DNA of 31,554 nucleotides, taken from IMG/VR virus record IMGVR_UViG_3300009000_000025, positions 1 to 31,554 of that record; one strand, 5' to 3'. Position numbers and translations under genes: made by a program. Shown here piece after piece: positions 1,760 through 31,440 of this stretch. Every line of letters begins with the position of its first letter. Position 1 is the first letter of the stretch. Source of the DNA: a virus. Below the pieces are notes generated by a model that did not search any database, had not been told where the DNA came from, and worked only from the letters and a program-made list of their open reading frames with translations.

Positions 1760-1789
1760 CATTAAAAGCCAGATACAAGGAATCAAACA

Positions 1790-2794: not shown

Positions 2795-2818
2795 TCTCCA
2801 TAAGAAAGGAATAACATT

Positions 2819-3229: not shown

Positions 3230-3239
3230 AATAACAAAA

Positions 3240-3267
3240 GTGAGGGCTGCTTAACGGTGGCCCTCAC
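3240..3267 (+). terminator. Stem-loop after the capsid genes
   Basis: A perfect 8-bp inverted repeat, gtgagggc (3240-3247) and gccctcac (3260-3267), has a 12-nt loop. It sits in the 78-nt gap after the accessory head gene. A further ccctcac copy follows at 3281-3287, which could pair alternatively with the left arm. There is no T-run downstream, so it is either a weak/partial terminator, a transcript-processing site or an RNA stabiliser that separates abundant head mRNA from the connector genes. Confidence 0.4.
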
Positions 3268-3307
3268 ACCCACAATTGAACCCTCACATGAATTAGGAGA
3301 TCACCGG

Positions 3308-3637: not shown

Positions 3638-4022
3638 TGAGTTGAAGGAGCAGGGTTTCGATGCTGCCCAGATACCTGAAAGTTCATGGGAGATTTTTAG
3701 AGTTGACCCTGATGGAGTGTGGAGAGAAGACATACATTGGATAGAGAGACCCCGTGATGGTTTTGGTGGTATCTCTATCAAGCGTAAGGTAAACCTCCAT
3801 GAAGATGCTCTACTAAGGGCCAACAGAGAGGAATATGAAGACGGTAAGGGGATGGTAAGGAACAACGGGACATCACTAGATGCTAAAGTTGCCTCCATTC
3901 CTCTCAACGTCTACTTTGCTGAACTCAACGAACACGTTAAAAATGGCGATAAAGAGCATATAAAGTGGTGGTTGAACCAGGAAAAGAACAGACCTTACAG
4001 GACTCAAAAAGGTAAAGTATAA
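3627..4022 (+). CDS. Hypothetical protein, 131 aa
   Basis: The start at 3627 (MTYDELKEQG) has a ggagagg site just upstream and overlaps the preceding stop by 11 nt. A longer in-frame start at 3582 would overlap by more than 50 nt and is unlikely. The protein is soluble and charged, with Trp-rich segments (SSWEIFRVDPDGVWREDIHWIERP) and a positively charged C-terminus. It ends with TAATG, sharing one base with the adaptor gene. No family recognised. In related phages genes here encode structural or head-completion proteins, so I infer a late role. Confidence 0.6.
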   Translation: MTYDELKEQGFDAAQIPESSWEIFRVDPDGVWREDIHWIERPRDGFGGISIKRKVNLHEDALLRANREEYEDGKGMVRNNGTSLDAKVASIPLNVYFAELNEHVKNGDKEHIKWWLNQEKNRPYRTQKGKV

Positions 4023-4633
4023 TGGCATTATCTAACTACGCAGAATTACAGACAGCACTCACAGCTTGGGTTGACAGCCGTAGTGATGTGACTAACCTAG
4101 ATGCTGATGTAGTTAGGCTTGCTGAATCTCACTTTAACTTGGAACTCAGAGCTAGGCAAATGCTCACTTCTACAGACCTTACACCGTCTAGTGGCAGTGT
4201 GACGTTGCCTAGCGATTTTTTAGGTGCTTACAGTGTCGTTGAAAAAGCTACTCCAAGGCGTGTACTACAATATTACGGGAAAGAGCATCTTGAAAGCAAT
4301 TTTGACACCACAATCTCTGGGTTGGCTGTTGGTTACACTATTGTCGGTAGTTCACTTACTATGGCTCCACAGCCTTCTAACGACATTGAATTAACCTACT
4401 ACCAAGAGATACCAAACCTAGAGGCAAACTCTACAAACTGGTTGATGACAAAGTACCCTGCCCTTTACCTTGAGACCTGCCAGATGGAAGTCTACAGGAA
4501 CCTCAAGATGGACACTGACCTACAGATTTCATCTCAAAGGGTAGAGAACATGATCAAGAGGTTGAACGCATCTTCAGACAATGAGTTGTTGTCTATGGCA
4601 ACCTCTGTTAACAATGTTGGACCTGTATTCTAA
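4022..4633 (+). CDS. Head-to-tail adaptor protein (P22 gp4 / SU10 adaptor-like)
   Basis: 203 residues, mostly helical, coupled by TAATG to the preceding gene. The N-terminus (YAELQTALTAWVDSRSDVTN, then DVVRLAESHFNLELRAR) matches the pattern of small podoviral adaptor proteins that form a ring below the portal. Typical features follow: a beta insertion (LPSDFLGAYSV), the EIPNLEANSTNWLMTKYPALYL segment, and C-terminal helices. Similar sequences in podoviruses begin with a helix that interprets W, then DADVVRLAE. The neighbouring nozzle gene is consistent with this. The call comes from pattern recognition and gene order. Confidence 0.7.
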   Translation: MALSNYAELQTALTAWVDSRSDVTNLDADVVRLAESHFNLELRARQMLTSTDLTPSSGSVTLPSDFLGAYSVVEKATPRRVLQYYGKEHLESNFDTTISGLAVGYTIVGSSLTMAPQPSNDIELTYYQEIPNLEANSTNWLMTKYPALYLETCQMEVYRNLKMDTDLQISSQRVENMIKRLNASSDNELLSMATSVNNVGPVF

Positions 4634-4634
4634 G

Positions 4635-6080
4635 ATGATACCTTTCCCAGATTACGAACCAGATAAAAGTATCTTTGACCCTTCAGGCGCTACTGTTGTC
4701 ACTAACGTAGAGCCTGTTGAGGGTGGTTGGGGGCCAATAGCTAATCACGTCCCTGTGGCTACAGCACTCCCTACAGGTGTTAAAGGCGCTATTGCAACCT
4801 TGGATTCATCTGGAACCTACAGTATCTTTTGTGGGACAACAACCAAGCTGTACAAGTACAATTCAGGCACTTTGTCGTTTGATGACGTGTCCACAGCAGC
4901 AACCACATACGCTGTCCCCCAAGGGTATAACTGGTCGTTTCACCAATGGGGTGACTTGTTGTTGGCTACAAATCAAACTGACGGGCTGTACAAGTTTGAT
5001 CTAACTTCGGGGACAGAGTTTGTTAATGTATCCTCCGCACCTCTTGCTAGAGCAGTTACAAACGTAGGTGAGTTTGTCGTGTTGTTGTATATCGACGGCT
5101 CACCAAGACGGGTGCAGTGGTCTGAGATCGGGGATGTTGATAGCTGGACTGTAGGTCTTAACGGTTCAGATTTCCAGGATTTCCCTGACGGTGGTGACAT
5201 TAGGGCTGCACAACCAGGTGAAGGTGGGGCTGTAATACTCCAACAACGTGCTATCAGGAAGATGGATTATGTTGGAGGTGACTACACATTTGCGTTTTCA
5301 CAACTCTCAACAGCAAGGGGGTCAGTATCTAACCTATCCTCTGTTGTTGCTAACAATGGGATTTTCTTCCTAGATGAAGATGGCTTCTACTATTTGTCTA
5401 ACCAAGGTCCTGAGCCTATTGGGGCTGAAAAGGTAAACAGGACGTTCCTAGAGGACATTGACCTTGATTATATAGCAGAGGTTCAAGGTTCTGCTGACCC
5501 TGTTAACAAGATGGTTTGGTGGGTCTACAGGAAAGTAGATGCCTCACGGGGTATCATAGGGTATGACTGGCAGCTTAAACGCTGGACTACTATGGACAAG
5601 AACTACAACTACCTGTTCTCAGCGTCTATCCCAGCATACACATTGGAGGCTCTTGACGCTATCAGTGCTTCAATTGATGCCCTTGGTGTATCACTAGACT
5701 CTAGGATATGGACAGGTGGAAGACCTACTTTTGCAGCCTTTGACAGCAACAATGAGTTTGGATTCTTCAGTGGCAACCCTATGGATGTTGTTGTTGAGAC
5801 TACAGATCAGGTCTTGGGGAATGAGGGCGGTAGGGCGTTTGTCAATGGATACAGGTTCGTTACAGACGCTGCTACACACACTGGTAAGGTAGGCACTAAG
5901 GACACACATGCAGGAACTAGGTCTTGGTCAACTGAGGGAACTCCTGATAGTGACACAGCTCTAATCCCATGCAGAGAGAACGCTAGGCTCCATAGGTTCA
6001 GGGCTATAATCCCACAGGACGAGCCTTGGAACCACATACACGGTGTTGAAGCCAAGGTTAGAGATGGGGGACGACGCTAA
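4635..6080 (+). CDS. Tail nozzle / tail hub protein (beta-propeller type)
   Basis: The ATG at 4635 (MIPFPDYEPDKS) lies 1 nt after the adaptor stop. A longer in-frame start at 4581 would lie inside the adaptor gene and is rejected. 481 residues. The sequence is dominated by repeated blades of the form YKYNSGTLSFDDVS, GLYKFDLTSGTEFVNV, VVLLYIDGSPRRVQWSEIGD and GIIGYDWQLKRWT, typical of P22 gp10-like nozzle proteins in marine podoviruses. Such proteins form the hexameric tube below the adaptor and carry the tail fibres. The end overlaps the next gene by one base (TAATG). Confidence 0.78.
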   Translation: MIPFPDYEPDKSIFDPSGATVVTNVEPVEGGWGPIANHVPVATALPTGVKGAIATLDSSGTYSIFCGTTTKLYKYNSGTLSFDDVSTAATTYAVPQGYNWSFHQWGDLLLATNQTDGLYKFDLTSGTEFVNVSSAPLARAVTNVGEFVVLLYIDGSPRRVQWSEIGDVDSWTVGLNGSDFQDFPDGGDIRAAQPGEGGAVILQQRAIRKMDYVGGDYTFAFSQLSTARGSVSNLSSVVANNGIFFLDEDGFYYLSNQGPEPIGAEKVNRTFLEDIDLDYIAEVQGSADPVNKMVWWVYRKVDASRGIIGYDWQLKRWTTMDKNYNYLFSASIPAYTLEALDAISASIDALGVSLDSRIWTGGRPTFAAFDSNNEFGFFSGNPMDVVVETTDQVLGNEGGRAFVNGYRFVTDAATHTGKVGTKDTHAGTRSWSTEGTPDSDTALIPCRENARLHRFRAIIPQDEPWNHIHGVEAKVRDGGRR

Positions 6081-6460
6081 TGGCTATCCTACAGCATCAA
6101 ACCCATGAACGGCTGATAACAAAGCCTCTTGAGCTGACCACCAGCAGACAGACGTTCTACACCTGTCCTGCTAAATTGTCGCCAAGATTGAGCCATGTTC
6201 TGTTGTCTAACAAGACAGGTGCTACAAGTCCTGCAACAGCAAGTTTCACCCTTGAGTATTATCAGGCATCGACAACAACATATTTCAGCCTTGCTACAAC
6301 AGAAGACATTCTTGTAGATAGCAGGGTTCTCTTGGACTCTAACAACATGCCATTGCTGAGTATGAAAGAGGGAGACCTTATAACCTGTAAGGCATCTGCT
6401 AACAGCTCTATTGATTGCATTGTTGTTGTCATCGAACAGGAAGCCCGTAAGGTAGTATGA
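6080..6460 (+). CDS. Small virion-associated protein, 126 aa
   Basis: Coupled by a TAATG overlap to the nozzle gene and by ATGA to the next. Ser/Thr-rich and beta-like throughout (ASFTLEYYQASTTTYFSLAT, then a VLLDSNNMPLLSMKEGDLITC segment and a C-terminal IVVVIEQEARKVV strand). There is no membrane helix or catalytic motif. The strands with a GDLITC turn look like a jelly-roll or fibre-like fold, which would fit a small tail or particle-surface protein. I do not recognise a named family, and the function is inferred from location only. Confidence 0.6.
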   Translation: MAILQHQTHERLITKPLELTTSRQTFYTCPAKLSPRLSHVLLSNKTGATSPATASFTLEYYQASTTTYFSLATTEDILVDSRVLLDSNNMPLLSMKEGDLITCKASANSSIDCIVVVIEQEARKVV

Positions 6461-6852
6461 AGATACAATCCATACACCCTCATAATGTTGATGATACGTG
6501 GCCTTTAATAGCGGGTGGCCTTATTAAAGCCTGTAACAGGACAGGTGGAAGGGTTACACCTGATTATCTTTACAGGTGCTGTATAACAGGTGATAAGACT
6601 TATGTGGTCACTTCAGATGAAGAAAACCTGCCGTTTATGGCTTGTGTGGTTACTTTTGAGAATTGGGGTGGTGAGCGAGTATGCTATATAAATGCAACAC
6701 ATGGAACTAGGATGAGAGAGTCAATGGAACTTCTTAAAGGTTGGGCTAAATACCACGGTGCTACATCTGTGACTTGGGATGGCACTGAAGGTTACAAAAA
6801 GACTTTCCCTGAGGCTGAAACAGTAAGTCAAACTTACAAACTGGAGATTTAA
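6457..6852 (+). CDS. GNAT-like (acetyltransferase-fold) phage protein, 131 aa
   Basis: Overlaps the previous gene by ATGA. Its overall pattern is N-terminal VDDTWPLIAGGLIKAC, a YLYRCCITGDKTYVVTSDE strand pair, and a MACVVTFENWGGERVCYIN strand pair. Then come RESMELLKGWAKYHGATSVTW and a Gly-Tyr-Lys-Lys segment. This matches the short GNAT-fold proteins that podoviruses often encode among the internal virion genes (the T7 gp13 area). The classic acetyl-CoA loop (Q/RxxGxG/A) is not evident, so enzymatic activity is doubtful. Family membership is from memory of the pattern and moderately sure. Confidence 0.55.
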   Translation: MKIQSIHPHNVDDTWPLIAGGLIKACNRTGGRVTPDYLYRCCITGDKTYVVTSDEENLPFMACVVTFENWGGERVCYINATHGTRMRESMELLKGWAKYHGATSVTWDGTEGYKKTFPEAETVSQTYKLEI

Positions 6853-6853
6853 T

Positions 6854-8026
6854 ATGTCAGGTGGCGGCGGTGAAAAAGTTACAAACACCACAATCAACAA
6901 CACAGACCCTTGGAGTGAGGCACAACCTTATCTCGAAAAGAGTATGTCGGAAGCTGAGAGTCTTTATGACGCTGGTGTAGGTCACAACCCATACAATCAG
7001 AGTTTGGTTATCCCTTATGCTGATGCTACTATGCAGGGTATGCAGGGGGTACAAGATACTGCTGGGATGTACCAGAACGCCCTACAGAACCCAATGTCGT
7101 TCAACACAAATATGTTTGACACAGGTGGATTGAACGCTGCCCAACAAACATCTCTTGGGCAACTTGGGTATGCTGCACAGGGTAACCCTTACAACGCACA
7201 GTCTCAGCAAGGTGTTAATTCTCTACAGAACATGAACACACAATTGGATGCTAGTGGTGGTCTAAGTCCTGCTCAACAGGCATCACTACAGCAGAGTGCA
7301 GGGTTAGCCGCTGGTAATGAGCTTTATGGTAGTAATCCTGGTTTCCAGAGGAACCTACGGGAAGCCCAGAACGACGCTATGAACTCTGTTAACGAGCAGG
7401 CTATGAAAGCTGGCAGGTATAGCTCAGGGGCGCATCAGGGTGTTATGGCAGACCGTATCGGTGACCTGACAGCTAATATGTACTCTAATGAGTATGGTCG
7501 TCAATTGGGTCGTCAGGATGCTGCAAGAGGAGAGCAGTTCCAGATGGGACAGCAGGGTCTTGGTAACAGGACATCCTCCGCTAAAGACCTCTTTGGTGCT
7601 GGTAATACAGGTTATGGAAACCAGTACGATGCTGTGATGAACCAATTCAACGCTGGTCAGCAGGGTACTCAAAATATGTTTGGTGCTGCTGCTGCAATGC
7701 CATCAGACTACAGCACAGCTTCATCAGGCTACAGAGATATGATGGGTATCGGTAGTATGTACGAAGACCTTGCCACAAGAGAGGCTAATGACCAGTTGCG
7801 TAGGTACAACGAGGCTGACATGGAGGAACTTAACAGACTTGCACAGTACAACTCTTTGATTGGTGGCGCTGGTAAGATGGGTTCCTCTACAACTAACCAG
7901 ACTATTTCACCTACAGCTTCCCCGTTCCAAGCTGCTGCTGGCGGTGCTATGACAGGACTTGCTAGTGGTGGTACAACAGGTGCAATGATCGGTGGGGGTC
8001 TTGGTCTGTTAGGGAGCCTATTCTAG
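6854..8026 (+). CDS. Internal virion / ejection-type protein, 390 aa
   Basis: The ATG follows the previous stop with a single-base gap. Three features stand out. The N-terminus is Gly-rich with TNTTINNTDPW. A long central part is rich in Gln, Asn, Ala, Met and Gly with repeats of the type LSPAQQASL / LNAAQQTSL. The hydrophobic C-terminus is AAAGGAMTGLASGG followed by AMIGGGLGLLGSLF, a glycine-zipper-like segment able to enter membranes. Proteins of this build are found with podoviral internal (ejection) proteins and may pass into the envelope with the DNA. There is no enzyme motif. Exact role uncertain. Confidence 0.6.
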   Translation: MSGGGGEKVTNTTINNTDPWSEAQPYLEKSMSEAESLYDAGVGHNPYNQSLVIPYADATMQGMQGVQDTAGMYQNALQNPMSFNTNMFDTGGLNAAQQTSLGQLGYAAQGNPYNAQSQQGVNSLQNMNTQLDASGGLSPAQQASLQQSAGLAAGNELYGSNPGFQRNLREAQNDAMNSVNEQAMKAGRYSSGAHQGVMADRIGDLTANMYSNEYGRQLGRQDAARGEQFQMGQQGLGNRTSSAKDLFGAGNTGYGNQYDAVMNQFNAGQQGTQNMFGAAAAMPSDYSTASSGYRDMMGIGSMYEDLATREANDQLRRYNEADMEELNRLAQYNSLIGGAGKMGSSTTNQTISPTASPFQAAAGGAMTGLASGGTTGAMIGGGLGLLGSLF

Positions 8027-8040
8027 GAGGAGTGTAAGAT

Positions 8041-9525
8041 ATGGCTAATTCAATGCGTGGTCTGACCCCTGAAATGACTGCTGAGTGGGTAAAAAGGATG
8101 CAAGAGGCTTATGAAAAAAAGGGGGCTAAAAGTAAAGCTGTACGACCTGCTGGTATGAACCCAAGGTCAAGGGCGTTACCTAGTTATGTGCCGCTAAAAC
8201 AAGAAACTCCATTACCTGCAAATGCAAATAATTCTCCAGACAGGTTCCCATTCAATCCTCCACCTATACCTGTACAAGACTTAGGCTACCCTCCACATGC
8301 TAGTGGAGCTTTGGGGAGTAACCAAGGTCAAGGCTTAGGCTACCCTCCACATGCTAGTGGAGCTTTGGGTCAAGCACCAAGTTACCAAGACCAGTTTCCT
8401 GTTGACGGTGCAGTGCAAGGGACTAATCCTAATGCTGCTATGATGGGTGGTGACGAGACTGCTGGACAACCTAGCATGATGGATAAGATCATGGGCTACA
8501 AACCTGACATGGGTATGCAGCAGTTGTTTGAGGCTACAGGAAAGGCGTTTGGTAATCCTCTTATAGGTGTTGCCCCTAGCGCAGGCGGTACTAGCATAGG
8601 TGGTGAGTACTCAAACCTCAATCCTGCATATGCTGAGAAGAAAAGGACAAAACTTGCTGCTGATAAACTTCGTGAACAAGAAGAGTCCCAAGAAAATGAG
8701 AAGCGCCAGTACATAAAAATGGGCTTGGAGTCAGGTGCAATCACTCCTAAACATGCACAAAGGCTCATGGCACTTAAAGGAGTTCCAAAAGGAATTAAAG
8801 ATATTATCGAAGCTAAGACTTTTGGTAATGTTGATAATCTTGGTACGTACAAGGGCGGTCGTATCTTAAAAGCACCTACATCTAAAAATGTTGGACACTA
8901 CCTAGATAAGGAAACTGGAAATACGCTACCATTTTCTCAAGAGGATTGGATAAATTCCTCCCGTAAAGGACAGTCTAAGTCAGCCTCAGAAGCTAATGAA
9001 GATGCTTTTTCTGAAATGGGTATTTCGTCTGCTGAGAACGCTCTTGCTGTTATAAGGAAAGAAAAAGAATCCCCAATTTGGGAAAAACTTATTGGCCCGG
9101 GTACGTTTAGTGGGAGGATTGCAGATTATTTGAGCGCAGATACTCCACTTGGTAGGATAAGACAAGCTATGGAGCCTATTTTAGCTACACAAAGTTTGGA
9201 TGAGATGAGAAGACTTAGGGAAGCCTCACCTAATGGCAGCACAGGCCTTGGTCAGGTTACAGAGTTTGAACATAAAATAATGCAAAGCAAGATAGCTGCG
9301 CTAAACCCAGAGACTACAGACATCAAAGTCTTAGAGAAAAACGTAGAAGAGGTGTTGAACTATCGTAGGTGGTTGTTTAATAGGAAGTCTCGCCCAGATG
9401 AAGGTGGCCTTTCTTACAAAGAGTGGTTATCAAAAAATAAGACAGATACTAAGGTGAAAAACTTAGAGTCTGAATTAAAGAGACTTAAAATAACTCCAGT
9501 AGGAAGGGTTCCTCAAGGTGGCTAA
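8041..9525 (+). CDS. Internal virion protein, 494 aa
   Basis: An aggagg Shine-Dalgarno precedes the ATG. The first 110 residues are Pro/Gly-rich and disordered and include an 18-residue unit (LGYPPHASGALG core) present twice. A central part has a charged helix (residues about 200-235, RTKLAADKLREQEESQENEKRQ). The second half is more globular, with a segment (SPIWEKLIGPGTFSGRIADY) and a basic Lys-rich end. It overlaps the next gene by 8 nt. The layout matches podoviral ejection proteins that are stored in the head and delivered to the cell. I recognise no catalytic motif; the role is inferred from place and length. Confidence 0.55.
   Translation: MANSMRGLTPEMTAEWVKRMQEAYEKKGAKSKAVRPAGMNPRSRALPSYVPLKQETPLPANANNSPDRFPFNPPPIPVQDLGYPPHASGALGSNQGQGLGYPPHASGALGQAPSYQDQFPVDGAVQGTNPNAAMMGGDETAGQPSMMDKIMGYKPDMGMQQLFEATGKAFGNPLIGVAPSAGGTSIGGEYSNLNPAYAEKKRTKLAADKLREQEESQENEKRQYIKMGLESGAITPKHAQRLMALKGVPKGIKDIIEAKTFGNVDNLGTYKGGRILKAPTSKNVGHYLDKETGNTLPFSQEDWINSSRKGQSKSASEANEDAFSEMGISSAENALAVIRKEKESPIWEKLIGPGTFSGRIADYLSADTPLGRIRQAMEPILATQSLDEMRRLREASPNGSTGLGQVTEFEHKIMQSKIAALNPETTDIKVLEKNVEEVLNYRRWLFNRKSRPDEGGLSYKEWLSKNKTDTKVKNLESELKRLKITPVGRVPQGG
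8280..8369 (+). repeat. Tandem 36-bp direct repeat with internal palindrome
   Basis: Bases 8280-8315 recur exactly at 8334-8369 (period 54 nt, 18 codons), in frame in the 494-aa virion protein. Each copy also holds an inverted repeat ctccac/gtggag with a 6-nt spacer. Confidence 0.85.
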
Positions 9526-11050
9526 GTTTAGGTTTGAACATGATGGGACTATGTATGATGTTGAAGCTGACTCTCAGGAAGAAGCAGGCAACAAAATGCT
9601 ACAGGCCTTCGGTGGGCAAGAACAAGAAGTAAGCACTGCACGTCAACTTGAGGCTGGTGTACAAGGTGCAGCTAATTTGTTGACTGCTGACCATGCAGAT
9701 AGAATTTTAGCTGGGATTGGTACTGGTGGTGGATACCTTGGAGACTACGACAAAACCCTAGAGTCTATCCGTGAAAGGATGGATGAGACCAGCCGACTTG
9801 CACCTGGTTCTGAACTACTCGGTGGTGTTGCCGCTGGATTTGTTCCTGTTGCTGGTCAAGTAGGTAGGGTTGCATCTGTAGTTAAGGGCGGGAGTAAACT
9901 CTTAGGCATAGGTAAACTTGCAGCTAAAGGCGCTGGTGCTGGTGCTGCTTATGAGGGTTTGTCTACACACGGTAGAGATAGGGGAGACACAACACCTGAT
10001 GACTATGTAGACAATATGTTGAAAGGGGGCCTTGTAGGTGGTGTCGCTGGGCCTGTTGGTGCAGGTATTTTAGCTAGTGGTCGTTGGCTCGCTAAGGGGA
10101 AAAGTAAGGCCTCTAGTTATTCTGACAGACTAGATGAAGTACATAAGATGAAACCTGACTCCTATAAAAAAGTTGATAAAGACACTACAGCAGTCAGAGA
10201 CAATCCTCTTAGAGATGCTATTGACGAAGGTAAGGCTAAGTTAAAAGGGTCTGGATATGCGAAAAACTCAGTCTCTAGTAAGTTGATCAGGCTTTTAGAA
10301 AGGGATTTGAAAGACAGTAACCCAACAAAAGTTCCTGGAAAAACTACAAAAAAGTACTCTGGTATGGATGACGATGGCTACCCTAGGTACGAAACAAAGA
10401 CTACAAAAGCTATTAAAAAACCCGCTAAGAAAAATTTCACAGTAAAAGACAGCATGGATATGTTAGAGAAAATCAACATGGCTGTCAATAAAGCAAGGGG
10501 GAAAGGTGGGAAGGACTACACAACAGCCCTTGCTATAAAAAAGTCTTACATGGATTCTCTGCAAAAGGCAGTGACACCGAAAGCTTGGGATAATATAAAG
10601 ACTAGAAACAGCTTGCATCAAAACACAAAAACCTATGAAAAACTAAAAAAAGAACTTAGTAAAGATGTCTTGGATGTTGATAAGGTAAAGGCATTAGCTA
10701 GAGATACTAGTTTGCCACCAGAGGTAAGAAAGTTATTGAGTGATGCTGCTAAAGACCCGTCTAAAGCAAAAAGTGCAATCAAAACACTAGCTAGACTTCC
10801 TTTTGGTATAAGTGGAGGTATTATTGATATTGCTAGTGGTAGGGGACTGCAAGGTGCAGCTCGTCTTACAGCAGCATTAGGGTCAAGGGCAATAAACAGT
10901 AAGCAAAGAGGTAAGTTAAACTATGATTTGCAAGACAAGTTGTTTGACCAGTTTGCCAAGAAAGAAGCCCTAGCACCTATGAACAAGGGGTTGTTAAGCA
11001 CAGGACTTGGGGCTAGCGGTGCAGGATTATTTTCGGATGGGGAATACTAA
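9518..11050 (+). CDS. Internal virion protein, 510 aa
   Basis: Starts at a GTG (9518) overlapping the previous gene by 8 nt, with an aggaagg site about 10 nt upstream; no ATG nearby fits. The N-terminus AKFRFEHDGTMYDVEADSQEEA is a common tag-like opening of phage virion proteins. A Gly/Ala-rich hydrophobic region follows at about residues 85-190 (LLGGVAAGFVPVAGQVGRVA, GLVGGVAGPVGAGILASG), which could insert into membranes. After this the protein is very Lys-rich with repeats of KTTKKYSG/KTTKAIKKP. This suggests DNA or membrane contact during ejection. It ends in TAATG shared with the next gene. Confidence 0.55.
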   Translation: MAKFRFEHDGTMYDVEADSQEEAGNKMLQAFGGQEQEVSTARQLEAGVQGAANLLTADHADRILAGIGTGGGYLGDYDKTLESIRERMDETSRLAPGSELLGGVAAGFVPVAGQVGRVASVVKGGSKLLGIGKLAAKGAGAGAAYEGLSTHGRDRGDTTPDDYVDNMLKGGLVGGVAGPVGAGILASGRWLAKGKSKASSYSDRLDEVHKMKPDSYKKVDKDTTAVRDNPLRDAIDEGKAKLKGSGYAKNSVSSKLIRLLERDLKDSNPTKVPGKTTKKYSGMDDDGYPRYETKTTKAIKKPAKKNFTVKDSMDMLEKINMAVNKARGKGGKDYTTALAIKKSYMDSLQKAVTPKAWDNIKTRNSLHQNTKTYEKLKKELSKDVLDVDKVKALARDTSLPPEVRKLLSDAAKDPSKAKSAIKTLARLPFGISGGIIDIASGRGLQGAARLTAALGSRAINSKQRGKLNYDLQDKLFDQFAKKEALAPMNKGLLSTGLGASGAGLFSDGEY

Positions 11051-14000
11051 TGGCTACTAAGGCTGAAAAACGTGCAAAACTTGAAAAGGCTTTGAAAGAC
11101 CCTAATGTAAAAGCTGCATTGGAGACTATTAAAAAGGCAGAGGGAACTTCAGAATTTTCAGACCCGTACCGAAAGGGATTCAACGGCAACTCTTATTCTA
11201 GTTTGTCAGATCACCCAAATAAAGTTTGGTCAGCTAAATCTGGCAAGAAAACAATGAAATCCTCTGCTTCTGGCCCTTACCAGATTATGAAAGACACTTG
11301 GTACGGAACAAAGAAAAATGGCTGGAATGGGATTAAGTCTCAACTTGGTCTTACAGACTTTTCCCAAGAGTCTCAAGACATAGCTGCTCTACACTTAATA
11401 AACCAAAAAAAGGCCCTTGACCCTTTGTTGAAAGGAGATTTCAAAACTTTTGCAAATAGGGTCGGCCCTGTGTGGGCATCTTTTCCTAACAACACTTATG
11501 GACAGCCTAAGAAATCAATCTCTAAATTAGAATCTTGGTTTAAGGAAGCAAAGGGTAAAACGCAAAGTACACCAGAAGCTCTAACATTCTCAGATGTAAC
11601 GACTGACCCAATATACAACGGATTGCTTGGTGATCTCAATGCAACCCCTGAGAATACCGGCCTAACAGACTTAGAGAAACTTGGCTCGTTTCGTGAGGCA
11701 CAAGACCTACAACATGATCCTGTGACTGCTCCTACACAAAGACCAAGTATCCCCCAAGGAACCAGCCCAAGAACTTCTGTTGACGCAGCTCCTAGTTATC
11801 AAGATACAGATATAGGCGCACTTGGTAGGGCTGCTAGTAACCCTATTGAGGCTGCTATAGCTAAAGCTGAGATTGACCAAGGCATAGACCCAAGAGGAGA
11901 TCAGCTTGCCCCAACACCTGGTAGGGATAGTCACATACTAGCAAATATTGCTGCTAAGGATAATGCAGTAAACGCAGGTGATCCTAACAGGTACACTGAC
12001 AGTTTCACAGAATACAACAAAATGGTAGGTAGGGTTGACCCTGTTGAAAAGGCCATCACCGAGGAAGAGGTTAAGCAAGGGGTCAAACCACCAGAAGCTA
12101 TGTACAATTCATTGTTGAACGATGAGCTTAACAAAGGGTTGACCAACTTTGATGATTTACCTACTGTAGGGGACTATCCTGCTGATCCACCTGTAACTAC
12201 CCCTACGTTCAGACCGTCTGTAACTACACCTACGTTCAGACCTGATAGTTTTGCTGGTGGTGATATACCTGTACCTAAGCCTAGACCTCATTATGTTGAC
12301 CCTAGCCTTGGTGGGCCTATCTTAGATGAAGCAGACCCTATGGCTGGTAAAGGGCCGACAGGTTTTGAAGGGCCACAGACACCATCTGGAGTAGCGTTTC
12401 CTGAACCTACATTTGAAGGGTTACAAGAACCTAGTGTAGATTCTAACATTCCTCCAACAGGCGGCACTCCTTTCGTACCTGGAACTGGTCATAATGCACC
12501 TGTCCAACAGCAGAATGTTGTACCTACCGACACCTTAAATGGTAGCTACAATACTGAGAGAGAATTAGAAGGCCGGGTAGACAGGGAAGATGCTGTCACA
12601 CGCTTAATGGCAAGTGAAAGTATACCTAATGGTCTTGCCCCGTTTAATCCGCCTGAGTTTGCACTTAAGCCAAACCCTGTACAATCAGTGTCAACCGACT
12701 CCAACGGTATGCTCCCTAATGCCCCGACACCTGTTAAAACAACCCCTGTAAGTTTTCAAGAGCCTTACCAAAGGGCGTCAACCCCACACGACAGGAACTA
12801 TGAAGAAACCCTTATGCAGGGCTATATGCCTAAGAGTACCTTACCTAATGTAGCCCGTGGGCCTGATGTACCGTCTGCTGGCTTAGATACCTCATATCTC
12901 ACAGGGGACAGGTCAAGTCAGTTTGACAGGGCTTTTGACCCATTTAACACAACAAACATTCATAAGTCTGAAGGTAGGTTGTACCAAGACGGTTCTTCAA
13001 GCAGCAATATTCTAGGCCCATCTTCAGTAAACACTACGCAAGATAACACAGGTGTGGTGCAAGATAACTATGAAAGAGAGAGCGCGGCTTCTGGTGCTTC
13101 TTGGGGACCAATAGCAAGTTCTGTTGCAGCTAAAGTTAGGTCGGTAGCACCTAGCAATGATAGCCCTCAAGAAAACTTTTTCAGGGATATACCATCAACG
13201 CCTATAGCCAGCCAAGCAGGAAGCTACGAATCTAACTTAGGTAATGTTAACTTAGCTGCTGATAGTGGAGGAAGTTATTACACAAGCCCTCAACAACAAC
13301 AGACACAACCTATAAGTTATGAGCCAATGGCACTTAGTGCAGACACTAGCTCGTTAACAAACGATGGGTTTTATAATGGGCTGACAGAACTGGATTGGAC
13401 TGACCCTGCTGCAAATGGTATGCAGTACACTGATGCTAAAGACGCTATAGAAAAAACCCAAGTTGGGATAAGTACCCTAACAGACCCAAGTCTTTTGCCA
13501 GCAAAACCAACCGTTGTACAACAACTGCTTGGCGTCAACCCAAATAGGTATGGAACAAAAGGGTTACTCACTAACATTGCAAAAGCTGCTGGTAAAGGTG
13601 GGTCTGCTGCTGGTCCTTTAGGTGCTGTCGCTGGTGCGTTATTTGGAGCAGTCAATTCAGCGCCAAAACGGACGTTTGACCAGGCTATGTCTATGTATCA
13701 GAACAACCCTAACATGACACAAGTGAAAAATGCTCACAACGCCCCTTCAAGGTCAGGTTCATTTTCTGTCCACACAAGTCCAGGGGGCAGAACTAGCGTA
13801 GTATCCGGTAAGGGTGAGTATGGTGATGGGTCATACACAGTTACTTCTAAGACAAGTGATGGTGGGTCCGTAAAAACTGTACATCTTGGAGAAGGTAGTG
13901 CAAACCCTGGTGGGCAGGCAGCTACAAAAATTGTCTGTACAGCAATGCTGAATGAGTACGGATTTGGGTCTTACAGGCAGAAAATCTGGTTGTTGTATTC

Positions 14001-14271
14001 CAAGAGATACACAGGCCCAGCACATGAGGTTGGCTACCATGCAATGTTCCTGCCACTAATCAAGTGGGCATACAAGGACAAGAAAGAGTGGGTACGTAAG
14101 CCTCTTGAGCATGTAGTAAGACTGAGAACTGTAGCTTGTGAAGACATTATGAAGAAACGTAAGAGGTGGCATGTCGGACACTTGTACAACACTGTGTTCT
14201 GTGCAGCTTGCTATACATTAGGTAAGGTAATCACTATGGTTAAAAAGGATAAGCAACCATGTCAGGCGTAG
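11050..14271 (+). CDS. Large virion protein with lytic transglycosylase domain
   Basis: 1073 residues in three parts. Residues about 15-170 match the phage lambda R endolysin (lytic transglycosylase, GH104-like). They carry catalytic Glu31 in KKAEGTSEF, then LSDHPNKVW, SASGPYQIMKDTWY, LGLTDFSQESQDIAALHLI and VGPVWASFPNNTYGQ, in the same order as lambda R. Residues about 170-880 are a Pro/Thr/Asp-rich disordered linker with local repeats (VTTPTFRP twice). The last 110 residues form a compact Cys/Trp-rich domain (CTAMLNEYGFGSYRQKIWLLY, then RTVACEDI) that I recall at the C-terminus of other phage virion proteins. By analogy with T7 gp16 it would open peptidoglycan for DNA entry. It overlaps the fibre gene by 13 nt. 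Confidence 0.72.
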   Translation: MATKAEKRAKLEKALKDPNVKAALETIKKAEGTSEFSDPYRKGFNGNSYSSLSDHPNKVWSAKSGKKTMKSSASGPYQIMKDTWYGTKKNGWNGIKSQLGLTDFSQESQDIAALHLINQKKALDPLLKGDFKTFANRVGPVWASFPNNTYGQPKKSISKLESWFKEAKGKTQSTPEALTFSDVTTDPIYNGLLGDLNATPENTGLTDLEKLGSFREAQDLQHDPVTAPTQRPSIPQGTSPRTSVDAAPSYQDTDIGALGRAASNPIEAAIAKAEIDQGIDPRGDQLAPTPGRDSHILANIAAKDNAVNAGDPNRYTDSFTEYNKMVGRVDPVEKAITEEEVKQGVKPPEAMYNSLLNDELNKGLTNFDDLPTVGDYPADPPVTTPTFRPSVTTPTFRPDSFAGGDIPVPKPRPHYVDPSLGGPILDEADPMAGKGPTGFEGPQTPSGVAFPEPTFEGLQEPSVDSNIPPTGGTPFVPGTGHNAPVQQQNVVPTDTLNGSYNTERELEGRVDREDAVTRLMASESIPNGLAPFNPPEFALKPNPVQSVSTDSNGMLPNAPTPVKTTPVSFQEPYQRASTPHDRNYEETLMQGYMPKSTLPNVARGPDVPSAGLDTSYLTGDRSSQFDRAFDPFNTTNIHKSEGRLYQDGSSSSNILGPSSVNTTQDNTGVVQDNYERESAASGASWGPIASSVAAKVRSVAPSNDSPQENFFRDIPSTPIASQAGSYESNLGNVNLAADSGGSYYTSPQQQQTQPISYEPMALSADTSSLTNDGFYNGLTELDWTDPAANGMQYTDAKDAIEKTQVGISTLTDPSLLPAKPTVVQQLLGVNPNRYGTKGLLTNIAKAAGKGGSAAGPLGAVAGALFGAVNSAPKRTFDQAMSMYQNNPNMTQVKNAHNAPSRSGSFSVHTSPGGRTSVVSGKGEYGDGSYTVTSKTSDGGSVKTVHLGEGSANPGGQAATKIVCTAMLNEYGFGSYRQKIWLLYSKRYTGPAHEVGYHAMFLPLIKWAYKDKKEWVRKPLEHVVRLRTVACEDIMKKRKRWHVGHLYNTVFCAACYTLGKVITMVKKDKQPCQA

Positions 14272-24951: not shown

Positions 24952-25636
24952 CGTCACCCTCCTTTTTAACTGGCGGTGTCCAAGCCTCATCAGCTTCACG
25001 CCTTAACCACAACAATGTAGCGTTCTCAGTCAAAGCCTCAAGATCACCCTCATAAGCCCTCAAAGTAGCCTCGTATAAATCGTATTCATCCATAAGACCA
25101 CCCAAGTATTTCTCTACTGCCTTCTCACCCTTGCCCTTTGCCCCTTTTATGTTGTCAGCACTATCACCAATGATAACCTGACTCCAGAAGAACCTTACAG
25201 CATCAATAGGTGATACCTCAGTCAAAGTGTCTCTTCCCCAATTGAAAATCTTGCAAGGCACTTGTAGAAAATCCTTGTCTGTTGATGCAATGATGCACTC
25301 ATAATCAAGGTTGTGTGCCTCTGTTACAATGTCATCATCAGCCTCTTGGTTGTCCGACACTGTAGCACCATATTCCTCTATAAGATACTCCCTAGCGTCC
25401 TCCAGGTAAAACGGCTTTTCCTTTCCTTTCCTATTAGCCTTGTAAGGTGCAATTGTAGCAACATCGTTCCTGAAGTTTGTTTTGCCAGTCAAGAAAACCT
25501 TGTGTTCTAAGTCCTCACACCTGTAAAAGATATAGTCAAACATTTCGTCAATGGTGTCATACAGGTCTTCTATCTCAAGCCCCTCACATTTGAAACTACA
25601 CCTGTATGATATTATGTCTCCATCAATGAGGATCAT
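24941..25636 (-). CDS. 5'-3' exonuclease (FEN/PIN type, T7 gp6-like)
   Basis: ATGA overlap with the preceding gene puts the start at 25636 (MILIDGDIIS); a longer frame back to 25672 overlaps it and is rejected. 231 residues. Acidic metal ligands in FEN order: LIDGD (Asp5, Asp7), QEADDD (Glu98, Asp100-102), STDKD (Asp120, Asp122), GDSADN (Asp158, Asp161), and a KANRKGKEKP basic loop. In T7 the gp6 exonuclease removes primers, degrades host DNA and aids recombination. It is next to the T7-like endonuclease I, as expected. Confidence 0.86.
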   Translation of the reverse strand: MILIDGDIISYRCSFKCEGLEIEDLYDTIDEMFDYIFYRCEDLEHKVFLTGKTNFRNDVATIAPYKANRKGKEKPFYLEDAREYLIEEYGATVSDNQEADDDIVTEAHNLDYECIIASTDKDFLQVPCKIFNWGRDTLTEVSPIDAVRFFWSQVIIGDSADNIKGAKGKGEKAVEKYLGGLMDEYDLYEATLRAYEGDLEALTENATLLWLRREADEAWTPPVKKEGDDET

Positions 25637-26367
25637 TTTACCTTTTCCCCTTTCATAGCCTTGATCATCCACCCAAGATACACCTGAGCCTTTTCCAAGT
25701 CTTCAATAGGCTTACCTTTATAACCGTGCCTGTGGAGATACTTGGTGACATTACCTTGGCAATATCCAATGAATTTCTCAGGGCCTAGCACCTGTTCGAT
25801 GTAGGCAATACATTCTATCTTACCAGGTTCAGGGGTGTAGTGGTCAGGCTTGTTTACAACATCTTCCTCCATCTCAGTATCATCAATAAACTTGCCAGAG
25901 ACCCTAGCATCCCCAGAGACCTCACCAGAGACCAAAGCAGTACCATAGACCTCACTATCACCAAAGACCTCAGCATCCCCAGAGACCTCACTATCACCAA
26001 AGACCTCAGCATAACCAAAGACCTCAGCATCACCAAAGACCCAAGCATTGCCATAGACCTTAGCATCCCCAAAGACCTCAGCATCATCAAAGACCTCAGC
26101 ATTCCAAAAGACCCTAGCATCACCAAAGACCCTAGCGTTGCCAGAGACCCTAGCGTTGCCATAGACCCTAGCGTTGCCATAGACCCTAGTATCACCAGAC
26201 ACCTCAGCATTACCATAGACCTTGGCATTACCAGAGACCCAAGCATTACCACAATGACTTAAATTCTTCTCACTCTCAATCCATCCACCAAGTGCACCGT
26301 TACTTACCTTGCGAATACGTTTAAGGCCCTCATCGTTTGTCTCACCAGTGAACTCATATTTTTTCAT
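25633..26367 (-). CDS. Hexapeptide-repeat beta-helix fused to DUF3310 domain
   Basis: 244 residues, strong Shine-Dalgarno (aaggaga). Residues 1-38 form a cap (KKYEFTGETNDEGLKRIRKV, then LGGWIESEKN). Residues 39-156 are 19 full hexads of the type [YFS]G[ND]A[RE]V plus one short 4-residue unit, a left-handed or polymer-forming type beta-helix. Residues about 170-240 are the DUF3310 domain (VNKPDHYT, then IECIAYIEQVLG, GYCQGNVTKYLHRHGYKGK, DLEKAQVYLGWM), which in T7 gp1.7 has nucleotide kinase activity. Each half is known from phages; the fusion is what I find unusual. A multimeric scaffold presenting a kinase is a plausible idea, untested. Confidence 0.75.
   Translation of the reverse strand: MKKYEFTGETNDEGLKRIRKVSNGALGGWIESEKNLSHCGNAWVSGNAKVYGNAEVSGDTRVYGNARVYGNARVSGNARVFGDARVFWNAEVFDDAEVFGDAKVYGNAWVFGDAEVFGYAEVFGDSEVSGDAEVFGDSEVYGTALVSGEVSGDARVSGKFIDDTEMEEDVVNKPDHYTPEPGKIECIAYIEQVLGPEKFIGYCQGNVTKYLHRHGYKGKPIEDLEKAQVYLGWMIKAMKGEKVK
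25900..26253 (-). repeat. 18-bp tandem repeats in the beta-helix coding region
   Basis: 19 full 18-nt units plus one 12-nt unit, degenerate; the closest copies (around 26131-26190) share the gaccctagcgttgccatag core on the plus strand. The period is coding: one unit is one hexapeptide. Confidence 0.9.
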
Positions 26368-27154: not shown

Positions 27155-29029
27155 TTAATGAATGTTAGCGTAGTTATCACCGAATTGAACATCAATCGCC
27201 AATTCGACATTTAGTTTGAGTTCAGCATTGGTGTCTACCATTGCCTGTTCCAAGTCGTATTCCAACTCCTCTGCTTGGTGTTTATCGAAAGGTGATACAA
27301 CAACCACCTCATCGTGAAATTGTGCAATAGGCCATACCTCTCTTCGTGTCAGGTGGTACACCCATCTGTCAAAACAGTAGACCCCTGAGCTTTGGTTGAT
27401 CGTACTCCAAATGTCTTTCTCAGTTCTAAGGTGATGCCAGAATCCTGAGATTGGATTTCGTACCCATTGCAATTCTGATTTGCTGCCTGTCAAAGTCTTC
27501 TTTGTTTCAATGTTGTTAACTACCTCCTTTACTGCCCAATTACGCTCCCAATATGCCTCTATGAGTTGAGCAGCAGCACGTTCTGACAACCCTGTCGCTC
27601 TGCTCAATGTTCTAGCACCAACTCCGTACACACTGGCATAATTTGCTGCCTTGTAAGACTTCCTGATAGCCTGCACCTCTTGACCACCAGCAGCTATCAT
27701 CCCATCTGTAATAGCCCCTGCAAACTTGGCAAGATCTAAGTGTGGGTCCCAATCCTTACAGTCCATCAGTTTACAATATTCAGGGTCGTGCGGTGTCATG
27801 TAATGGCGTTTGGTTGTGTCTTCAAGGGATACCATATCAGCACCACAAAGCAGTTCACCATCAGGCGCTCTCAACAACCCTCTGATCTCTTTACCCCAAG
27901 GCTTGTCAACACCAGGTAAATTCACAAGAGGCGCGACATGCTTGAACCTGAATGTGTTGGTCAAACCATGCACTCTAGCCTGTAGCTTGCCGTCCTTAGC
28001 ATACTTCAAAAACGACTTTACAATGTTCAGCCTGTGAACAAGAACGCTATAACCATCCAACAACTCAATAGCAGGGTCATTACTAGCCAGTTCAAGAACA
28101 GAGGGGCAAAGTTCTTTATCTTCTGTACGTACCTGTGGAACTTTTTTCTCAACACCTTTAACATTTCTTGTGAATTTCCAGGTTTGAGGTCTCCAACCCA
28201 AGCTAAACAGCCAGTCCTTGATCTGAGGTGTAGAATTAGGGTTGCCTCTCTCTGTGCTATCAACATATTCAACAGGCTCTGTCCTAGTACGTGCAAGACC
28301 CTGCCCATCCAAGAAATCATACCACTCTTGACCTTTTGCACTGACAGAACCGCAAGCAAGTTCAAAAACCTTTGGCTTTGCCTTGGTCTTGTAGTTGATC
28401 TTTTCAGGCATAGCATCTGAAAGTGTCTCAAATTTCTCAGCTATTAAGCCCTCCAGTTTAGTGTAGAGAGACTCTGCCCCTGCAACATCAATGTCAAAAC
28501 ACTGCTGCTCCTGTTTTTGTGCCAGTTGCATCTTGAATGTAAGATACCACATGACCCTATCTCTCGCCTCTTGGTCGTCCATGTAGAGCCTGTCCAGCTT
28601 TGCACTCAGGTCTTTCCAGAGCTTGAGGTTGATCTTAACATCTTCCTCACACCTGTGGACATATTCCTCTTGTGTCAGACCTTCCCAGTCGTCTATCTCA
28701 GGCTTCTTAATGCCGTAGTCAGTGCCAAAGTCTGCCAGACCGTAAGATTTACGTCGAGTCGGCAACAGATACCAAGCAAGCGGGAGTGTGTCAATTATAT
28801 CACACTTGATCTCAACACCTAAAACTTTTGATAGAGCAGGGATGTCATAACCAACAACATGATGCCCCACCACACAACTAACGGAAGCGAATAGAGAACG
28901 TATGTCATCCATATCCACCAAGGTAGTGATATTTCCATCGTCTTTCTCCAGGTTTGTGTAGCTTAAACAGTGAATTTTTGTAATGGTGTCTAAGAAACCA
29001 TCAGCTTCAAGGTCAAATAATATTTTCAT
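27155..29029 (-). CDS. DNA polymerase, family A (T7 gp5-like)
   Basis: 624 residues (T7: 704). N-terminal 3'-5' proofreading domain with ExoI FDLEAD (Asp6, Glu8), ExoII GHHVVGYDIPAL (Asp62) and ExoIII YVHRCEEDVK (Asp130). Polymerase motifs: A GADMVSLED (Asp398), B RKSYKAANYASVYG (Arg456, Lys460, Tyr464, Tyr468, spacing as in T7), and C QFHDEVVVV (His572, Asp573, Glu574). Motif A differs from the T7 ASGLELR wording. The T7 thioredoxin-binding insert is not evident to me. TAATG overlap with the primase-helicase upstream. Confidence 0.95.
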   Translation of the reverse strand: MKILFDLEADGFLDTITKIHCLSYTNLEKDDGNITTLVDMDDIRSLFASVSCVVGHHVVGYDIPALSKVLGVEIKCDIIDTLPLAWYLLPTRRKSYGLADFGTDYGIKKPEIDDWEGLTQEEYVHRCEEDVKINLKLWKDLSAKLDRLYMDDQEARDRVMWYLTFKMQLAQKQEQQCFDIDVAGAESLYTKLEGLIAEKFETLSDAMPEKINYKTKAKPKVFELACGSVSAKGQEWYDFLDGQGLARTRTEPVEYVDSTERGNPNSTPQIKDWLFSLGWRPQTWKFTRNVKGVEKKVPQVRTEDKELCPSVLELASNDPAIELLDGYSVLVHRLNIVKSFLKYAKDGKLQARVHGLTNTFRFKHVAPLVNLPGVDKPWGKEIRGLLRAPDGELLCGADMVSLEDTTKRHYMTPHDPEYCKLMDCKDWDPHLDLAKFAGAITDGMIAAGGQEVQAIRKSYKAANYASVYGVGARTLSRATGLSERAAAQLIEAYWERNWAVKEVVNNIETKKTLTGSKSELQWVRNPISGFWHHLRTEKDIWSTINQSSGVYCFDRWVYHLTRREVWPIAQFHDEVVVVSPFDKHQAEELEYDLEQAMVDTNAELKLNVELAIDVQFGDNYANIH

Positions 29030-30591
29030 TATCTTCCAATTTCTCTCATGGTGAATGTCTCTCGATCAAAAAACATTTCACCTGCATTGCCTAGTATCGT
29101 ATTAGGCCTGTTTTTAGTAACTGTTAGCCTAGTAATGTTTGACTCTGTTTCACTTTCGTGCATCATGTCTCTGTCAACATTAATGACAACAGCAGCCCTC
29201 TGCCCCAACATTCTTGCATATTTAATCTCACCGTCATCATTTGTGTGGGCAATGGATACAATACCTATATCAAGTTCACTCGACAACTGAGACAACCTAA
29301 CAGCAAGTTCAGCTAGTGATGCCTCTCTGTGATCAACATTGTTTATGCTGATGCACTCCTGTACTGGCTCTATAAAGATGTAATCCACACCGTATCCTAC
29401 AGCAAGCATCCTGAACAGGGTCAACAGGTCATCCATAGAGCCGCTGGGGGGCAACGTGAACTGATAGTACCGTCCAGTGCTGGCAATCTTTGCAATGGCC
29501 CCACGGACCTGTGTGTCCAAATTAGCAGCCTCAATCAAATCCTTTCGTGTGACGTTCTTGTGTAACTCATAGCTACACAGGCCTAAAATCGACCTGGTCT
29601 TGCTCTCTTCCAGATGACACACAGCTATTTTGCAATCTTGGTCCTGTGTTAAGAGTTGAAATTCCAAAAAACGCATGAGTTCGGTTTTTCCTACGCCAGT
29701 ACTTGCTTTAAACAACGTAAAGAAACCCTTTTGTAGACCTAACAGCACCTCATCAAGAGCTTTGACGCCAGTTGACGCATATGTCAGGTCGTTCTGTCCC
29801 TCATACAACGCAATCAATTCAGCCTCAGTGTGATAGACGTTTTCAGGTGTAAAGGCTGCTGCATTAAAATAACTCTGGACAAACATCTGTTGTTGACCAG
29901 CCTGCAACATCTCGTTTGCGTCTTTGTAAGTCCCTGTCTCTAATTTTTTGCATTTCCCAACAAAAATCGAGTTGAATTTGTCAGCCATTGCTTTACCAGG
30001 TTCGTCGCTGTCCAAGCACAAAATAATTTCTTCAAAGCCTGAAAGATATTTTTCAGCTAACGGCCAGAACTCTCTGCTAGGTGTTGCAGACGGGATAGAA
30101 ACAACTGGCAGAATTGTAGTCATTTTCTCAGTGTTCAACATCTGGTACGCACTGCAAGCGTCTAATTCACCCTCAACAACCAGAATCTTTTTTGCACAAC
30201 CCCTAGGAAACTTGTCCGACAACCATAATTGGCTTGAGGTGGAACCTTCAGAACGGAAATCTTTCGGAACAAGTCTGATCTTTTTAGACAGGTCTGGATA
30301 GGTGTATTCCTGTCTGACAACATCACCTCCAACCTGTCTGTATGTTTTCACACCTAAATTATCAAAGACAGTATTTTTCACACCCCTAAAAGAAACACTA
30401 TCCTTGATAATATCTACACACGGCAACGGATACTCCTCTGCAACCCAATCGAAATAAGCACCGCCAGCAGTCGGATAACTGCGGCCACAAGAGTGACATT
30501 TACCGCATTTTTTATCGACATTATATGAAAAGGCATCACTAGACCCGCAATCAATATGTGGGCAGGGTTTGTGGGACAACTCATTAGACAT
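29029..30591 (-). CDS. Primase-helicase (T7 gp4-like)
   Basis: 520 residues. N-terminal zinc-binding part CPHIDC..(Cys10, Cys15) and KCHSCG (Cys32, Cys35), used to recognise priming sites. TOPRIM fold: ILVVEGELDA (Glu140) and LCLDSDEPG (Asp194, Asp196), with KDANEML. RecA-like helicase: Walker A KASTGVGKTELMR (Lys302), then CHLEESKTRSI, FIEPVQE (Walker B-like) and ARMLGQRAAVVINVDRD. Order and length match bifunctional T7 gp4. First gene of the leftward operon proper, with a 235-nt untranslated stretch upstream that contains the 120-bp dyad element. Confidence 0.92.
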   Translation of the reverse strand: MSNELSHKPCPHIDCGSSDAFSYNVDKKCGKCHSCGRSYPTAGGAYFDWVAEEYPLPCVDIIKDSVSFRGVKNTVFDNLGVKTYRQVGGDVVRQEYTYPDLSKKIRLVPKDFRSEGSTSSQLWLSDKFPRGCAKKILVVEGELDACSAYQMLNTEKMTTILPVVSIPSATPSREFWPLAEKYLSGFEEIILCLDSDEPGKAMADKFNSIFVGKCKKLETGTYKDANEMLQAGQQQMFVQSYFNAAAFTPENVYHTEAELIALYEGQNDLTYASTGVKALDEVLLGLQKGFFTLFKASTGVGKTELMRFLEFQLLTQDQDCKIAVCHLEESKTRSILGLCSYELHKNVTRKDLIEAANLDTQVRGAIAKIASTGRYYQFTLPPSGSMDDLLTLFRMLAVGYGVDYIFIEPVQECISINNVDHREASLAELAVRLSQLSSELDIGIVSIAHTNDDGEIKYARMLGQRAAVVINVDRDMMHESETESNITRLTVTKNRPNTILGNAGEMFFDRETFTMREIGR

Positions 30592-30825
30592 ATTAAACCT
30601 CTTGTTTTATACTCCTGTGAAGGAGCGAAAGCGACAACCCCCATTTAATTAAAACCTAAAGATATAACAATTGTTTAACCAACTGTTTTTATCTTTATGG
30701 TTGTTGTCGCTTTCGCTCCTTCACAGGAGTTTTAACTTTTGTTGTTTCTCTAGTATATAAGAACACCTCAAAAAAATTTCTTACCAACAAAAAGGTAAAA
30801 ATTGATCGGTTTATGGGTGCTTTTT
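30592..30825. promoter_or_regulatory. Main intergenic region: probable control region/origin
   Basis: The largest gap of the window and AT-rich. Reading leftward, it carries AT-rich DNA with a candidate -10 (TATACT at 30757-30752, no convincing -35), the dyad element, then the primase-helicase leader. A second candidate TATAAA lies about 16-21 nt before the ATG, just outside the dyad. It lies between the sigma-like gene and the replication genes, where a T7-type phage would be expected to have promoters and perhaps an origin. Confidence 0.5.
30611..30730. repeat. 120-bp dyad-symmetric element (28-bp perfect arms)
   Basis: Bases 30611-30638 are the exact reverse complement of 30703-30730 (28 of 28). 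The symmetry axis at 30670.5 also falls on a perfect central 10-bp palindrome, aacaattgtt (30666-30675), and partial matches lie between them (641-644 with 697-700; 650-654 with 687-691). Each arm has internal structure: ctcc/ggag and gcgaaagc, a motif known to form very stable mini-hairpins. Outside the arms identity falls away. Confidence 0.95.
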
Positions 30826-31440
30826 TTATTTGTGTTGCCGAATTGCAACTATTCCAGCCTTTAACAGGTTACTTACGGTTTGCTGACTGACCCCCATTAT
30901 CTTACCAACCTCTGCCTGTGTCCTGCCACCCAGGGTCAGCCCAATTGCACGGGATTGCTCAGGGTCTAGGTTTTTGAGTAGCTTCTCAGCATCTTTTAAC
31001 CGCTCGCTGTGGATTAACGACTCTTCTGGACTAGGTGTAGGGTCTATATGGTTGTCGTGCAGTGTTACGCCATTTCCGCCAGTGTCGAATGTTGATGCAA
31101 AGGCTTCCAACCGCATTTTGGCAACATTATAGAACGAGCCGTCACCGTAAGCAGATTGCTTAACGTGCCAGTTAGCAGCCTTGACTAGCTCCAATGACAA
31201 CGCACTGAACAGCTCTTCAGAATCCTTGTCTGGATGACGTTTGACCAGGCTTTTGACTAAAGGGGTGAACTTTTTAATCAGCCTGTCCCTGTCCTGCAAA
31301 CTTGGCAGGTCGCTAAATGCTGGCCCATTGTCTGACCCAGAAAAGCACTCTTCACAGGTCAGACGATCCTGCGCCCAACCGTCATAATCCAGAATTGATA
31401 GTTCACTCACTTTGTCTCCGCAGAAATCGCACTCTAGCAT
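30826..31440 (-). CDS. Sigma-70-like factor with N-terminal zinc ribbon
   Basis: 204 residues from the ATG at 31440 (MLECDFCGDK; ggag site 9 nt upstream); a longer frame to 31479 lies in the preceding gene. Cys4-x2-Cys7 and Cys29-x2-Cys32 form a zinc ribbon. Residues about 52-115 (DRLIKKFTPLVKSLVKRH, EELFSALSLELVKAA, FYNVAKMRLEAF) resemble sigma region 2. The end (LDPEQSRAIGL, RTQAEVGKIMGVSQQTVSNL) is a region 4 HTH. So it probably directs host RNA polymerase to phage promoters. Region 3 is short or absent. The next part is the dyad control region. It overlaps no known gene; an unrelated HTH regulator is the alternative. Confidence 0.65.
   Translation of the reverse strand: MLECDFCGDKVSELSILDYDGWAQDRLTCEECFSGSDNGPAFSDLPSLQDRDRLIKKFTPLVKSLVKRHPDKDSEELFSALSLELVKAANWHVKQSAYGDGSFYNVAKMRLEAFASTFDTGGNGVTLHDNHIDPTPSPEESLIHSERLKDAEKLLKNLDPEQSRAIGLTLGGRTQAEVGKIMGVSQQTVSNLLKAGIVAIRQHK

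Follow-up and report, generated by a model that had tools for sequence, protein, structure and literature searches.

The window, as we call the whole 31,554-nucleotide stretch of DNA analysed here, is a 31.5-kb linear virus record in which a structural arm on the plus strand and a replication arm on the minus strand converge near 19.6 kb. Its replication genes, which encode a primase-helicase, DNA polymerase A, endonuclease I, MazG and a B12-dependent ribonucleotide reductase, are cobavirus-like (Zobellviridae, Cobavirinae), and the primase-helicase is ~43% identical to its counterparts in Lentibacter phage ICBM2 and Roseobacter phage CRP-5. The phage has an SU10-type capsid protein, and its terminase, encoded on an adjoining contig, is nearest to that of Sulfitobacter phage pCB2047-A (57%); this combination of affinities makes it a mosaic. 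A gene at 25633-26367 fuses YdcK-type beta-solenoid repeats to a DUF3310 domain, and its repeat stretch differs in length from that of a sister phage, L123, described below.

Two minus-strand genes, both read leftward, frame a non-coding gap of 234 bp (30592-30825), and no larger gap is seen in the ORF list of the window. On one side lies the primase-helicase gene (29029..30591; Toprim + DnaB_C), the first gene of its operon, and on the other a sigma-factor-like gene (30826..31434). The sigma-like protein has region 4 homology (Pfam Sigma70_r4, 1.4e-7; PHROG RNA polymerase sigma factor, 6e-10) and a weak region 2 similarity (E 0.13 to FliA); its structure model was of low confidence (mean pLDDT 53) and was not used. 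No relative of this gene was found in phages or genomes, and viral contigs yielded one, L108/L123. The gap does not lie between divergent genes, and with both neighbours running leftward its reading direction is the minus strand.

Within this gap we find a near-palindrome at 30611-30730, whose two perfect 28-bp arms, ACTCCTGTGAAGGAGCGAAAGCGACAAC and its inverted copy, are placed symmetrically about an axis at 30670.5. The promoter-distal arm (30611..30638, minus strand) ends ~20 nt ahead of the primase start codon, and the promoter-proximal arm occupies 30703..30730 on the same strand. Between them lies an AT-rich inner part of 64 bp (30639..30702, 25% GC), with the decamer AACAATTGTT exactly on the axis (30666..30675). 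Each arm also carries a local dyad, CTCCT-gtga-AGGAG at 30612..30625 and its mirror copy at 30716..30729, as well as the mini-hairpin motif gcgaaagc (30625..30632, plus strand; mirror gctttcgc, 30709-30716). In shuffled versions of the window (n=30) the longest perfect inverted repeat measured 10-14 bp, and a palindrome with 28-bp arms is far above chance expectation. An earlier note on this DNA had described the perfect arms, the axis with its 10-bp palindrome, the 64-bp AT-rich inner part and the location in the large non-coding gap between a sigma-like gene and primase-helicase, and all of these are borne out by the sequence.

The palindrome has a counterpart at the head of the other main operon. 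When a 17-bp piece of the arm was used as a query, L015 and L022, two further records, proved to carry this palindrome as well, there with 32-bp arms. The full contig of L022, L109, is 99.99% identical to window positions 1-14009 and so represents the left portion of this phage's genome; there the palindrome (L109 283-407) lies upstream of the terminase/structural operon genes, which gives the genome two copies, one at the head of each operon. The arms of the two copies are identical over 28 bp, and their inner and outer flanks have diverged. At both copies the palindrome is preceded by a promoter-like box of 37 bp, TTGTTGGTAAGAAATTTTTTTGAGGTGTTCTTATATA (30754..30790, minus strand), which is identical at 35 of its 37 positions in the terminase-side cassette and faces its own operon in the same orientation. 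Outside the two cassettes, no further box was found in the available phage sequence. The decamer AACAATTGTT sits on the palindrome axis in both copies (within 0.5 bp) and recurs directly after the box in the terminase-side cassette and in the sister phage; it occurs three times in ~37 kb, each time inside one of the two cassettes. Conservation reaches further on the promoter-proximal side of the arms (CCATnAAGATAAAAAC) than on the distal side, which shows that the element has a direction.

We consider it likely that box, palindrome and operon form a cassette that is present twice. The sequence, the paired copies, their common orientation and the conserved box are matters of direct observation, as is the architecture that the sister phage keeps with a changed sequence. 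An assembly artefact can be set aside: the terminase-side copy is found in two independent records (L015 and L022), an analogous element lies on the primase side of L123, and the arms are too short and the inner parts too different for a mis-join. The two-sided promoter considered in the earlier note does not fit a site whose neighbours are codirectional and whose conserved box stands on one side only, pointing at both copies into the operon that follows. Ahead of the terminase-side cassette, at the genome's left end, L015 also carries 17-bp direct repeats (TGTTGCACTGATGCCAC and variants, 112-222 and 392-410), which are iteron-like and may be an origin or a regulator-binding array. In the terminase-side palindrome, an exact 15-bp tandem duplication, CAGGAGTTAGTACAC, is present at the distal arm (L015 632-661).

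L108/L123, where viral contigs contain their sole relative of the sigma-like gene (protein 85% identical), offers a further instance. The aligned part of the L123 contig is mostly ~90-100% identical to the window, and it has the same box between the sigma-like gene and the primase, followed by a different palindrome. Its arms, GAGCCTCaACAGAGGCGA and TCGCCTCTGTgGAGGCTC, pair with one mismatch and then a bulged extension. Window and sister nevertheless have in common an AT-rich centre and mirrored arms whose outer ends each form a 5-bp/4-nt hairpin, although the hairpins themselves (CTCCT-gtga-AGGAG in the window, GCCTC-aaca-GAGGC in L123) differ in four of five pairs on both sides; a shuffled arm carries such a hairpin at the same place with P ~0.002. 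Symmetry and nested hairpins are kept between the phages while the sequence is changed. In all three instances the palindrome begins ~20-40 nt past the TATATA of the box. These three are the only distinct instances on which the comparison is based, the genome ends being missing and the terminase-side cassette of the sister not having been found.

The sister also separates what belongs to the element from what does not. The earlier note saw a single symmetric functional element, a view strengthened by the return of arms and axial decamer in the second cassette and by the architecture retained in L123. Its refuting condition, relatives that lack or poorly conserve the arms, has a mixed outcome here: the pairing is kept and the exact arm sequence is not. 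The gcgaaagc motif, to which it gave a key role, is missing from the L123 element and is therefore not an essential part. Around the element, the C-terminal helix-turn-helix stretch of the sigma-like protein (last ~30 residues) is identical in both phages, and the part ahead of it has diverged (window 30917-31036, ~58-70% DNA identity). Elsewhere in the replication arm, small-gene insertions or replacements in L123 lie opposite window positions 24954, 24385 and 24139-23985, between flanks that are ~97-100% identical.

The divergence from the sister at the palindrome belongs to a block that extends well beyond it. A change-point fit (log-likelihood gain 203) places its limits at 29874..30751 (minus strand), with 60% identity inside and 90% outside. 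The block starts right past the TATATA of the box and stops in the linker between the primase and helicase domains, such that the primase half (residues 1-240, the zinc and TOPRIM part) is 64% identical in amino acid sequence and the helicase half 94.5%. Palindrome and primase half have thus been exchanged together as one block. Their joint exchange either came about by chance, because they are neighbours, or points to a joint function.

On one reading, the palindrome may be an origin of replication, or a site of strand initiation, that is recognised by the primase which the phage encodes, with each arm a hairpin-bearing half-site and the box providing activating or priming transcription. The half-sites would lie on opposite strands and point towards each other across an AT-rich region that melts, in the manner of paired single-strand initiation sites. 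Such an origin would agree with the swap of palindrome and primase half as a unit with its break in the linker, with the conserved local hairpin in each arm, with the AT-rich centre adjoining the primase gene, and with the identical arms of the two copies, which are expected if one primase reads both. A leader RNA accounts for neither the exchange with the primase half nor the identical arms. A single recombination event of ~880 bp would, however, carry neighbours along in any case, and the second copy is equally well explained as the head of an operon. T7-type primases are known to need only a trinucleotide site. Within one strand, moreover, pairing between the arms would be favoured over local hairpins. 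GC skew, which the earlier note had named as a possible origin signal, tracks gene direction and does not change at the palindrome. We regard an origin as a real but somewhat unlikely possibility. A fuller version, which we judge unlikely, would give a double-stranded DNA phage two initiation sites that act in both directions and are specific to its primase, each a pair of mirrored hairpin half-sites, with site and primase domain passing between phages as a single module; a TOPRIM primase-helicase system would then have sequence-specific origins.

Known origins offer partial parallels. The primary origin of T7-type phages is a promoter plus an AT-rich stretch, and here too a promoter-like box is followed by AT-rich DNA near a primase-helicase; unlike in T7, no phage RNA polymerase gene is seen among the genes scanned, and the palindromic arms have no counterpart in that origin. 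The nearest hairpins read by a primase are those of RSF1010, although the primase is unrelated. Its ssiA and ssiB are hairpin-bearing single-strand initiation sites, one per strand, served by a dedicated primase (PMC4434180). Each half-site of our palindrome likewise bears a hairpin, one per strand, and its arms co-vary with the primase half. RepB', however, is a primase of the archaeo-eukaryotic type; the enzyme here is not of that type but a TOPRIM primase-helicase (Toprim + DnaB_C), and priming at the arms is conjectural. Small hairpins that lie close to phage genes and recur within the genome are also a feature of the N4 virion RNA polymerase promoters (PMC4496689). An N4-type promoter, which the earlier note mentioned, is at odds with the absence of the mini-hairpin motif in the sister phage and with the coding capacity seen: no giant virion RNA polymerase is apparent, the largest ORF in the available phage sequence, which lacks the genome ends, being 1073 aa. 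Of the functions raised in that note, an origin or an operator keeps its place among the readings, and the two-sided and N4-type promoters do not.

An operator set would act at the DNA level. A phage or host regulator may bind the arm dyads, the box-adjacent AACAATTGTT decamers or both, and thereby control both operons; from phage to phage, regulator and operator sequence would change in concert, as is the case for immunity-specific operators. The dyads in both arms are of operator size, in the window-type copies 104 and 105 bp (~10 turns) separate their centres, and the AACAATTGTT decamers are clustered, all within the two cassettes and, in the sister, directly after the box. In the sister, however, the dyad centres are 88 bp apart (~8.4 turns), no cognate regulator was found, and an operator has no need of 28-32 bp of mirrored arms. 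We judge this reading unlikely. The palindrome may also have no function of its own. As an inverted duplication or a mobile remnant, it would owe its perfect arms to template-switch correction and its second copy to copying from one locus to the other. Quasi-palindrome correction does yield perfect arms, and the element has no match elsewhere. Nevertheless, two independent sequence types have the same architecture in the same place, both directly behind the box, and there are no extra copies at other loci, which makes a functionless palindrome very improbable.

The reading we prefer, plausible though short of probable, is that of a promoter-leader cassette, which would head the replication (primase; middle) and late (terminase/structural) operons and in which the palindrome would serve as a leader hairpin. 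The 37-bp box would be a phage-specific promoter, possibly read by RNA polymerase with the sigma-like protein encoded just upstream; it has no fit to a sigma-70 consensus or promoter, so that we infer its promoter status. Transcription would start shortly past the TATATA, which would place the palindrome at the extreme 5' end of both operon transcripts. There its RNA would fold as a leader hairpin, with a stem that spans 28-32 bp in copies of the window type, and would set the fate of the long transcripts through RNase III processing or as a 5'-protection structure. Alternatively, its role may be antitermination of the put/nut kind; all of these are the best-known roles for leaders like this. 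The parts of this proposal that we infer are promoter activity, use of the sigma-like protein and action at the RNA level.

Several observations favour such a leader. The second copy lies before the terminase, with the box (35/37), orientation and spacing kept. The predicted RNA folds of the three leaders, each a single long hairpin, are strong (-74, -82 and -38 kcal/mol; z -14.6, -15.0 and -6.1 against shuffles), and the arms of the sister are changed with their pairing and the local hairpin still in place. The identity of the helix-turn-helix in the two sigma-like proteins is in step with the conserved box. RNase III processing sites are transcribed duplexes of at least two helical turns in leader or intergenic RNAs; for two copies here, stems of 28-32 bp are predicted, and their transcription and cleavage are putative. 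On the other side, RNA pairing alone leaves the identical arm sequences of the two copies unexplained, the exchange of the arms with the primase half is not what an RNA leader predicts, a local hairpin in each arm is superfluous if only the long stem matters, and there are but three distinct instances. The data do not separate a leader, an origin and an operator.

Among known RNAs, the putL and putR antiterminators of HK022, ~70 nt with two separate stem-loops, lie behind the early promoters (PMC9378689). As in HK022, a structured leader element would be present in two copies, one behind the putative promoter of each main operon; unlike in HK022, to which this phage is unrelated, the predicted leader is a single hairpin, 106-125 nt long, whose arms contain further hairpins, and two adjacent stem-loops of ~70 nt in total are not found. 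Among inverted repeats placed ahead of phage genes, the nearest layout described is that of the ESAS of Cluster K mycobacteriophages, which have 17-bp imperfect arms, a spacer mostly of 4-13 bp and many copies, and which are linked to a 13-bp start-site repeat (SAS) at start codons (PMC3203893). Both are inverted repeats with a variable spacer just upstream of phage genes, but here the arms are 28-32 bp, the spacer 61-64 bp and the two copies tied to an upstream box, with no 17-bp imperfect repeat linked to a 13-bp SAS. An intrinsic terminator is rejected, as no U-run follows the stem in gene direction and the sole weak match is on the opposite strand of one of the two copies. With regard to a protelomerase site, the centre of the palindrome is imperfect and no protelomerase gene is present among the proteins scanned, a subset of the ORFs.

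Searches for similar elements, which may have missed records very close to the window, returned none. Rfam gave no match to a known RNA family in the window, L109 or L123; phage and plasmid collections contained no similar element; and cultured cobaviruses and phages related by terminase have no large palindromes. A host-derived repeat was rejected, the arm 20-mer being absent from 84,980 bacterial and archaeal genomes. Two candidates from cobaviruses fell away. The terminal 29-bp palindrome of the contig L052 (1-104), at first taken as a relative, is probably a contig-end fold-back, since its first 18 bases are replaced in L045/L047. The conserved motif ACCTATAGAACCCTTGTCAGGGACAAG upstream of cobavirus primases is a single copy and proved to be coding, since in CRP-5 its in-frame translation gives TYRTLVRDKP, the C-terminus of a small gene. 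Literature searches on cobaviruses and on palindromes in Zobellviridae turned up no account of such an element.

In summary, this cobavirus-like marine phage has matched cis elements, one at the head of each of its two main operons. The palindrome is probably a control element of these two gene blocks, and its form has probably not been described before. Its symmetry persists through a change of sequence that is accompanied by a change in half of a replication protein. If the palindrome is a leader, it would represent a new system of regulatory RNA or promoter, found in a phage related to a widespread marine group; if it is an origin, it would show how the start of replication is picked in a T7-like primase-helicase phage that has no evident RNA polymerase.
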